Shown piece after piece: positions 59,032 to 61,994 of a stretch of DNA of 64,000 nt; the stretch's first letter is position 1, and every line of letters begins with the position of its first letter. Both the position numbers and the translations under genes were made by a program. The stretch is taken from assembly GCF_011601345.1 (NCBI RefSeq), contig NZ_JAAORB010000010.1, positions 1 through 64,000 on the forward strand, read 5' to 3'. The notes beneath the pieces are model-generated. The model worked only from the letters and a program-made list of their open reading frames with translations. It searched no databases and was not told the DNA's origin. This DNA comes from Roseovarius gahaiensis. GTDB taxonomy: Bacteria > Pseudomonadota > Alphaproteobacteria > Rhodobacterales > Rhodobacteraceae.

Positions 59032-60012
59032 ATGTCGGATCCCGTCAGCAACGCTGAAATCGAAGACGTGTTGTCGTCTATTCGTCGGCTGGTTTCGGTC
59101 GAAGATCGTGCCGACACCCAAGCCGATGATGCGCGCGATACATCTGAAACCATGGCCGCTGATCCCTCTCAGGGGGGGGCGGGTGACCGGCTGATGTTGA
59201 CGCCCGCCTTGCGTGTGGACGACCGCGACTCTGCACCTCAAACCGATGCCGACTCGCAGGGTGACGCAGACCTTCCCGGCGATGCCAACGCAGATCAGGA
59301 CCAGTCCGACGACGGGTCTGAGGCTCAAGAGCTTCGGTTTAGCCATAGCGACTATGAGCGCGCGTGGCAGGATACCGCCGATCAGACGGCGGAGCACGAC
59401 AGCACGGATGAGGCCGACAGCACGGGCGCAGACGATAGCGAACCGGCCGATAATGCCCCCTATGTGCTGGATCAGACACAGGCGGCAGATCCTTTGGACG
59501 CCCCCGGCCTTGGGGGTCGTATTGCCGAGGTTGAGGCGGCCGTCGCCGCGCGACACGATCAATGGGAACCCGATGGCGAGTCGGACGACGCCTATGCCGG
59601 TGGTTCTGTTTCGCCTATGGCTTGGGAAGATTACGGCCCCGAACCCACCTATGATGACGCAGATGGCGATGAGCTGACGGGCGATGCCAGTGACATTGCC
59701 GACGATACGGAACCCCCCGGCGCACAGACATTCGGTGAAACAGACGATCATCGGGTCGACGCGGGCGATCAAACGGCCGGCGCGTCTGCCGGAGGCACTT
59801 CGGCAACAACGTCGGATGATAGCGACGAGGAGACCTTGTGGGACGATGACCGTGTCGACACCGTCATCGACGAAGAAGCGTTGCGCGACATGGTCAGCGA
59901 AATCGTGCGTCAGGAATTGCAGGGCGCTTTGGGCGAACGGATCACCCGCAATGTCCGTAAATTGGTGCGGCGTGAAATTCACCGCGCCCTAAGCAGCCAC
60001 GAATTGGACTAG
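59032..60012 (+). CDS. PopZ-like (DUF2497-like) acidic disordered protein
   Basis: 326 residues in three parts. N-terminal 25 residues form a helix, SNAEIEDVLSSIRRLVSVED, like the EEILASIRRII helix of PopZ. A linker of about 220 residues is extremely rich in Asp, Glu, Ala and Ser, with Pro and Thr. The last 60 residues are helical, EALRDMVSEIVRQELQGALG then ERITRNVRKLVRREIHRAL, with the VRxEL/VxxLVxREI pattern of the PopZ oligomerisation domain. PopZ forms a polar matrix that anchors the chromosome origin. Function here is inferred from architecture. The TAG stop lies in a CTAG duplicated by an inserted element. Confidence 0.65.
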   Translation: MSDPVSNAEIEDVLSSIRRLVSVEDRADTQADDARDTSETMAADPSQGGAGDRLMLTPALRVDDRDSAPQTDADSQGDADLPGDANADQDQSDDGSEAQELRFSHSDYERAWQDTADQTAEHDSTDEADSTGADDSEPADNAPYVLDQTQAADPLDAPGLGGRIAEVEAAVAARHDQWEPDGESDDAYAGGSVSPMAWEDYGPEPTYDDADGDELTGDASDIADDTEPPGAQTFGETDDHRVDAGDQTAGASAGGTSATTSDDSDEETLWDDDRVDTVIDEEALRDMVSEIVRQELQGALGERITRNVRKLVRREIHRALSSHELD

Positions 60013-60438
60013 TGTTCTGCACCTGACGCAAGATGCCCGTGCGACGGCAAACTTGAGGTCAGGAGGCAAGTTTTCCGAGTGGAAAGGCTCAATCACGGCT
60101 GTCATCCCCGGCGCAGACATTGGAATGCCAAGCTCCTGCGCGGAGTCGAGGGCGAAGCCCGCCGCGCATCGCCGACGCGCCCCCACGCGGCGGCGATTTG
60201 GTTAGGCTGGGCGCATCGCTTTGATGTCGTTCGGATTTGGCTGACATAAAGTGCCCAGCCCCATTTAGCTTCGCCACCGCGCGCGTCGGCAATGCGCGGC
60301 TTGATCCGGCGTCTGCTCCATCCCGCAAAAGCTCAGTGGCGGTGCCACTTTGCAAACTAGCTGCCGCTCGCACCTTCGCTGAACGGGGGTCGACACCAGA
60401 GGCGAGCGTTCAAACTTACGTCAGGTGCAGAACACTAG
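60009..60438. mobile_element. 422-bp MITE-like element with terminal inverted repeats and CTAG duplication
   Basis: Terminal inverted repeats TGTTCTGCACCTGACGCAAG (60013-60032) and CTTACGTCAGGTGCAGAACA (60415-60434) match in 19 of 20 positions. Both ends are flanked by CTAG (60009-60012, 60435-60438), a likely 4-bp target duplication as made by IS5-type transposases. No transposase is encoded, so it is non-autonomous. Internal sequence is GC-rich, with a stem around 60170-60195, and no convincing frame. It separates the stops of the PopZ-like gene and cobQ. Confidence 0.75.
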
Positions 60439-61886
60439 GTCAAAGGCGCGGCCAATCTCAGCAGCAGGTCCAGATCCATATGGGTTTCCATATGCTGACC
60501 CAAAGCGTCGAGCGTGGTTTCAAGATCATCGCCATAGGTCAGGCCCGATTGCCCGCCCAGATCGGCCAGAAACGCGGCGCGAAACGCATCGGACGCAAAC
60601 AGCCCGTGCAGGTAACAGCCGCGCACACGGCCCGACGGCGATGCTGCGCCTTCCGGACGGCCCGCGATATCCAGCCATGCGCGCGCGCAATCTGGCCCGC
60701 TGGTTTCGCCAAGGTGAATTTCATAGCCTTGCACCGCATCGCCTGTGGCGCGGTATGTGGCATCGGTTAGCGCAAGACGCTTTTCCGGCTTCATCACGGT
60801 GATCACATCCAGATGGCCAAGGCCGGGCACGCTACCTGCCACGCCTTCGATACCGTCCGGATCGGCGATGTCACGGCCCAACATCTGATAGCCGCCGCAA
60901 ATGCCCAACACGTGCCCGCCGCGCCGGATATGCGCGGCCAGGTCGATATCCCAGCCTTGCGCCCGGAAATGCGCCAAATCGGCAATCGTCGATTTACTGC
61001 CCGGTATCAAAACCAGATCGGCATCGCCGGGCAGGGGCTGGCCTGCCTCGACGATCTCGACGCTGATATCAGGCTCGGACGACAGCGGATCAAGGTCGTC
61101 GAAATTCGCGATCCGGCCCAGCCGGGGCACCGCCACCTTGAAGCCGCCGCCCTTGGTGGATGCGATATCCATGACATCCTCGGCGGGCAGGCGCCATGCG
61201 TCGGCAAACCATGGCACAACCCCTAACGACGGCCAGCCGGTGCGCTGCGCGATTTCAACCAATCCATCGTCAAACAGGCTGACATCGCCGCGAAACTTGT
61301 TGATGGCAAAGCCCTTGATATGCGCGGCATCCTCGGGCGGCAAAACGGCCTGAGTGCCGACGATCTGCGCAATCACGCCGCCGCGGTCTATATCGCCCAC
61401 CAGCACCACGGGCACGCCTGCCGCTTGGGCAAAGCCCATATTGGCGATGTCGCCCGCGCGCAGGTTGATCTCGGCCGGGCTGCCCGCGCCCTCGACAATC
61501 ACCAGATCGGCGGATGCGCTGAGCCGTTTGAAGCTGTCCAGAACCGGCGGCATCAGGCGCGGTTTGGCTTTGGAATAGTCCCGCGCGCGCAACGTGGCAA
61601 AGCGTTGGCCCTGCACGATCACCTGCGCGCCGGTATCGGTTTCGGGTTTCAGCAGCACTGGGTTCATGTCGGTGATCGGCGCACGTCGCGCCGCCAGCGC
61701 CTGCAAGGCCTGTGCCCGGCCAATCTCGCCGCCATCTTCGGTGACGGCGGCATTGTTTGACATGTTTTGCGGCTTGAACGGTGCGACCGACAGGCCACGA
61801 TTGGCAAACGCCCGTGCCAGCCCGGCGACAAGCATCGACTTGCCCACGTTCGAGCCTGCGCCCTGAATCATGATCGCTTTGGCCAT
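60435..61886 (-). CDS. cobQ: Cobyric acid synthase CobQ
   Basis: 483 residues. An N-terminal dethiobiotin-synthetase-like ATPase domain ([33 protein letters not shown]) is followed by a class I glutaminase-like domain ([12 protein letters not shown] with Cys, and GCYLHGLF with the His). It amidates four carboxyl groups of adenosylcobyrinic acid diamide in B12 synthesis. Start 61886. No other cob gene is in the window. Its TAG stop lies in the right-hand CTAG of the inserted element. Confidence 0.96.
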
Positions 61887-61994
61887 TCGGCGCCTCTTTG
61901 CTCTGCTCACCAGTGGTCTTAGCGGTCGCGCTTGACCTAGGAAAGCCTTGAAGCGTCAGAGGTGGGGCAAATAAGACATGGCCGCAAAGAAATG

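Follow-up and report, generated by a model that had tools for sequence, protein, structure and literature searches.

Between the convergent popZ-like and cobQ (cobyric acid synthase) genes of Roseovarius gahaiensis lies a transposase-less element of 424 bp, which is very probably a MITE with IS630-family ends that entered the TA of a four-base stop site shared by the two genes. Both genes are left readable after the insertion. The element is of a known kind, an IS630-type MITE near RUP in type; what was unexpected is the modular family behind it. The stretch analyzed here (the window) comprises 64,000 nucleotides, positions 1 to 64,000 of contig NZ_JAAORB010000010.1; C numbers refer to the R. 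gahaiensis genome, G numbers to genomes and L numbers to loci.

Anatomy of the insertion

The 20-base inverted ends, at 60013-60032 (+ strand) and 60415-60434 (− strand), are alike at 19 of 20 positions (one mismatch) and are adjoined by CTAG at 60009 and at 60435. With up to 3 mismatches allowed, the end pattern has exactly 2 matches in the 64 kb, against a mean of 0.03 in shuffled sequence, and the inverted repeats with flanking CTAG described in an earlier note on this DNA are thus real. The inverted-repeat unit of that description stands, while its length has been revised from 422 bp to 424 bp (60012-60435, based on ends, junctions and other copies), with TA as the target. The two target copies occupy 60010..60011 and 60436..60437, TA being taken as the duplicated sequence from two other members of the family (L098 and L114, see below). 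Only short reading frames occur within the 424 bp, none of them a transposase gene, and a search of 59800-60650 for terminator-like sites and promoters returned none.

The popZ-like ORF (59032..60012, + strand) stops with the TAG at 60010-60012, the G of which is the element's first base, and the cobQ ORF (60435..61910, − strand) stops at 60435-60437 (CTA), where the third base of the codon is the element's last base. These coordinates agree with the earlier reading that the left CTAG holds the popZ-like TAG and the right CTAG the cobQ stop, and the stop of each gene is intact; the insertion would have been neutral. The identity of cobQ is firm (NF001989, 614.6 bits, cut-off 273; TIGR00313, above its cut-off; Pfam also agrees). 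The popZ-like protein matches the PopZ model weakly (NF052660, 22.2 bits, below the cut-off of 125), and its C-terminus is the same in 47 of the 49 relatives read.

Inside the element, an A end module that includes the IS630-type terminal repeat (60012..60100, + strand) is followed by a carried repeat (60102..60357 in its own-genome form, with a core at 60134-60306 that recurs across the genus) and by a B end module, also including the terminal repeat (60358..60435, − strand). Profile models were built from 17 A ends (R1) and 12 B ends (R2); R1 matches the window at 60010-60100 with 76.7 bits and R2 at 60358-60437 with 61.5 bits, each of these ends being itself part of its model.

The same junction in related genomes

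A cobQ search gave a match in 83 of 84 genomes of the genus (R. gahaiensis included), some of them weak and to other proteins. Junctions of 49 relatives were read, 29 in loci and 20 in fetched stretches, and the popZ end was located in 47 of them. Both stops fall within one four-base site in 12 of the 49: CTAG in eight (L038, L049, L052, L053, L060, L061, L079 and L094), CTAA in L037, L041 and L064, and TTAG in L062. A second script, for which the cobQ motif was narrower, found both stops in 40 of the 49 and recovered 8 of the 12 shared sites, 6 of them CTAG; the sites in L041, L052, L060 and L062 come from the first reading. Elsewhere among the relatives, the two stops either have an overlap of 10 or 16 bases or are separated, the largest distance among the 40 being 323 bp. 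Searches with R1 and R2 placed no end module at the popZ-like/cobQ junction in any of the 49 relatives; the one strong match near cobQ, in L063, is on the far side of cobQ, outside the junction.

The four-base stop sites of the relatives, together with the absence of the element there, make it well supported that the two genes would already have shared a stop site before the insertion. The empty site with overlapping stops that the earlier note had called for is thus present in related genomes, and its view that removing the element leaves one palindromic CTAG as the stop for both genes has counterparts in the eight CTAG relatives. The nearest relative by cobQ (G026, L037) has CTAA at the shared stop site, not CTAG. 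Because a G stands to the right of the second TA, the original target here would have been CTAG, and we infer CTAG as the target in the strain's own ancestor.

Transposon class and target duplication

The window's left terminal repeat is also found at the edge of complete elements that carry a transposase ORF, in L067 (363 aa from ATG) and in the MAG AG16 (372 codons between stops). By its matches to NF033545 (269.8 bits, cut-off 100) and to Pfam DDE_3, the L067 protein is a transposase of the IS630 family. The left end of these elements has the first ~20 bases of the window element with no or almost no difference; by eye the similarity gives out after about 27 bases, and at the right end they are unlike the window element. 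Two complete copies, L098 (C-TA...TA-C) and L114 (C-TA...TA-T), have an outer base that breaks CTAG and keep the TA, which shows a duplication of TA only in these two. The element has, then, terminal repeats like those of an IS630-family transposon, TA on both sides (and TA without CTAG in L098 and L114), and it is short, lacks a transposase and occurs in several copies.

A search of the R. gahaiensis genome with the element returned 23 matches, namely itself, one further full copy (85% identity) and partial ones, several of which are the carried repeat alone; these copies, which the earlier note had suggested looking for, lie at unrelated places. TC stands in place of TA at one junction of the second full copy. 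Across the family, the end pattern with at most 1 mismatch is present in 11 of 394 sampled genomes. A plasmid collection searched with the A end of L104, the B end of L205 and the A end of the window gave no match for any of the three.

No close transposase was found in the R. gahaiensis assembly; the best match, at C48, is 25% identical, and no element ends could be made out around it in positions 1100-2885 of that locus. Transposases like that of L067 occur in 7 of the 84 genus genomes at E <= 1e-40, fragments included.

Two other accounts of the locus were weighed against an IS630-type MITE. The earlier note assigned the element to the IS5 type, as a miniature element with a four-base CTAG duplication, and since CTAG stands on both sides here, such a duplication explains this locus equally well. 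The class assignment has nonetheless to be given up: the transposase gene lying between such ends is of the IS630 family (Tc1/mariner-like, NF033545), and L098 and L114 keep the TA and break the CTAG, which leaves the IS5 account very improbable. The 424 bp might instead be a conserved functional spacer of the locus and no insertion at all, a reading to which the genus-wide occurrence and the structure of the carried repeat lend something; yet the spacer is absent between these genes in 49 of 49 relatives read, and other copies sit at unrelated places in the genome; within the genus this reading is contradicted and very improbable.

In the course that we propose for the IS630-type MITE, the element would have been moved by a transposase supplied in trans, no close one of which remains in the assembly, and would have entered the TA of a four-base site at which the convergent popZ-like gene and cobQ both ended. 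The TA would have been duplicated on insertion, and as the element runs from G to C, TA plus G would have remade TAG on each side, with both proteins keeping their ends. The element would belong to a modular family whose A and B modules surround genes in some members and, here, a genus-wide palindromic repeat. We infer this order of events from the present arrangement.

End modules and carried repeat

The two ends are different modules, A of ~90 bp and B of ~80 bp, and beyond the terminal repeat they show no resemblance to each other (z about 1 in a shuffled-score test). Compared directly against shuffled sequence, the window's A end scores z 9-18 with L139, L063, L097, L070, L104 and L069, z 4.7 with L098 and L199, and z 0.4-3.5 with L115, L211, L101 and L186; the B end scores z about 6 with L197 and L104, and z 1-3 with L211, L098, L102, L115, L101 and L105. 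Given these weak direct scores, the link of some model ends to the window is an indirect one, by way of intermediates. R1 and R2 match 17 and 18, respectively, of the 84 genus genomes (E <= 0.001, R. gahaiensis included), some through the terminal repeat alone, and both modules occur in other genera (shuffled-score test) and in genomes outside the model set. Loci that hold one and the same element end (L069/L213 and L112) or one and the same element (L098 and L182) were counted once.

The carried repeat is found without the ends in the R. gahaiensis genome as solo copies at C12, C9 and C23 (89-94% identity), and six copies in unrelated flanks are present in G014. The whole element matches 61 of the 84 genus genomes, mostly through element positions ~125-295. 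The repeat, of ~170 bp (60134-60306 in the window; copies L160-L179), is seen across the genus as a covarying long stem with a small hairpin. In an alignment of 26 copies, its 28-pair structure forms in 97.1% of cells, and 9 pairs changed on both sides, against a shuffled mean of 2.1 (0 of 500 shuffles as high) and at most 3 in slid controls; the structure was derived from the alignment used to test covariation, which favours it. The whole element folds as RNA with a z of -7.4. An Rfam family was sought for the element, and the three matches at E 0.05-0.5 all fell far below the gathering score. The carried repeat may be either an RNA or a DNA palindrome.

Two contigs of the R. gahaiensis assembly, C62 (L282) and C38 (L283), have a B end no more than 90 bp from their edge; C34 and C7, too, terminate within about 160 bp of an end module. 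The sequence beside the B end looks the same by eye in C62 and C38, where a longer repeat element may have interrupted the assembly.

Genes enclosed by the end modules

A and B modules face each other over 0.4-2.0 kb in twelve elements: C2, C9 and C6 of the R. gahaiensis genome, and L098, L101, L104, L205, L211, L274, L275, L276 and L277. C2, C9, L098, L101, L104, L205 and L211 contributed both ends to the models and C6 its A end; the B end of C6 and the two ends of each of L274-L277 are outside them. Of the 8 ends in these last four untrained pairs, 4 still have TA.

Various genes are carried between the modules. C6 (L273:72-1902) encodes a membrane diguanylate cyclase (GGDEF, 136.7 bits; 5TMR-LYT), and the dehydrogenase gene beside it has its stop at the border of the element. 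An EamA transporter and a LysR regulator are encoded in L205 (275-2314), and a GNAT acetyltransferase in L211 (1895-2754). The ORFs in L098, L101, L104, L274 and L275 (147-303 aa) belong to no Pfam family, and L277 gave one match below the Pfam cut-off. An HNH nuclease is encoded in L097 (1587-2903), where an A end is present and the other side has the terminal repeat only. No transposase family was matched among the cargo ORFs tested, which were those of C6, L097, L098, L101, L104, L205, L211, L274, L275 and L277. In L294 (3515-4426; G067), a gene crosses the border of an A end, and its last codons and stop are supplied by the element. L115 (2067-7981; Marivita lacus) has an A-like end that faces a B-like one at a distance of 5.9 kb, and several ORFs lie between; this may be one large element or two unrelated ends, and L115 was left out of the count of cargo elements.

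For C6, dehydrogenase-gene loci were fetched from 29 of the 57 relatives with a match, with a reading of the gene end for 28; R1 and R2 found no end modules at these 29 loci. The left flank of C6 is unlike the neighbour in relatives, so this does not constitute a clean empty site, and none was obtained for any cargo element.

These arrangements suggest a modular family in which A and B modules enclose interchangeable contents, either genes or a structured repeat. The alternative is that the A-B pairs are not units, that independent MITE ends in decay happen to have genes between them, and that a MITE is all there is. Consistent with this are the 5.9 kb between the ends of L115, the one-sided L097 with its clear A end, the z scores below 3 to the corresponding window end for the A of L101, L186 and L211 and for the B of L098, L101, L102, L105, L115 and L211, the loss of TA at half of the untrained ends, and the want of a clean empty site. 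Against it, the twelve elements have A and B facing each other 0.4-2.0 kb apart, L274-L277 do so outside the models at both ends, and the cargo ORFs tested match no transposase family. We consider independent ends rather unlikely. For the modular family in its fullest form, an undescribed family in the Rhodobacterales of trans-mobilized cassettes, with two dissimilar end modules of IS630-type termini that surround either ordinary genes or a structured repeat, and with a tolerance of stop codons, or a preference for them, owed to the remaking of TAG by TA and the terminal G, the chances appear evenly balanced.

Stop codons as insertion sites

On either strand the first base of the element is G, and TA is duplicated, so that TA plus G yields the TAG stop of the popZ-like gene and of cobQ alike. 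By the same anatomy, any TAA or TAG stop entered at its TA would become TAG. We scored as stop-like any site at which a frame open for >=80 codons ends exactly at the junction. In the R. gahaiensis genome, 7 of 8 readable insertions (C2, C9, C6, C56, C62, C64, C25 and C34:112626; only C62 fails) are on stop-like sites, defined by open frames and not by proven genes, compared to 9 of 35 CTAG sites from the pieces around element matches (Fisher one-sided p = 0.002). C7, C34:173 and C38, with decayed junctions, were left out; in C6 and C25 the open frame runs to the edge of the stretch, and for C56 the longer locus L006 was used (189 codons). Selection against insertions inside genes would explain this excess.

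Over all ends, 17 of 62 pass the open-frame test, against 93 of 576 CTAG sides (p = 0.024). Without the 9 ends of the R. gahaiensis genome the figure is 11 of 53 (p = 0.24 against the same 93 of 576), not above background, and the preference for stops is therefore not general. As a criterion the open frame is lax: of 17 CTAG sites in the window it counts 6 as stops, compared to 1 of 17 with called genes, by which 13 of the same sites are inside genes and 3 intergenic (one within the element). CTAG is rare in the window: it occurs 19 times, where base composition predicts 228 and a second-order model 48.

Known systems and significance

The mobile insertion cassette MIC231 of Bacillus cereus belongs to the IS4 family. 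MIC231 and the qnrS2 mic element of Aeromonas, in the portions of the reports available, are like the present elements in having IS-type ends, non-transposase genes and activation in trans (PMC3129680, PMC4444841). They differ in that the ends here are IS630-like and the window copy has no non-transposase gene between them; C6, L205 and L211 do have one. RUP of Streptococcus pneumoniae is described in the accessible text as a 107-bp repeat of about 100 copies, small and transposase-less, inserted at TA, for which mobilization by the IS630 element IS630-Spn1 was proposed (PMC2229807, PMC3049150). The present element is likewise small, without a transposase and at TA, and may likewise be moved by an IS630 transposase. 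RUP differs in being shorter and in that copy number; here A and B are unlike modules, and genes lie within sister elements. ISY100 duplicates TA (PMC2170065) and IS630 is reported to prefer TA within CTAG (PMC2170065, reference list), both of which recall the insertion described here; unlike it, IS630 and ISY100 are autonomous and encode their own transposase.

In a literature search to which subscription journals were mostly closed, the partly accessible sources contained neither such cassettes in Rhodobacterales nor the stop-remaking rule. The same search returned nothing on IS630 MITEs with stop codons in Rhodobacteraceae, and nothing on insertion sequences at the overlapping stops of convergent genes.

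The popZ-like/cobQ locus indicates that a transposon can enter the most compact of arrangements, two genes on one stop site, and leave both readable, as TAG is restored on both strands by a TA target plus a terminal G. It makes a neat example, while the cassettes are what deserves further attention. That different genes lie within one kind of ends suggests that genes in the Rhodobacterales may travel by a route so far overlooked.
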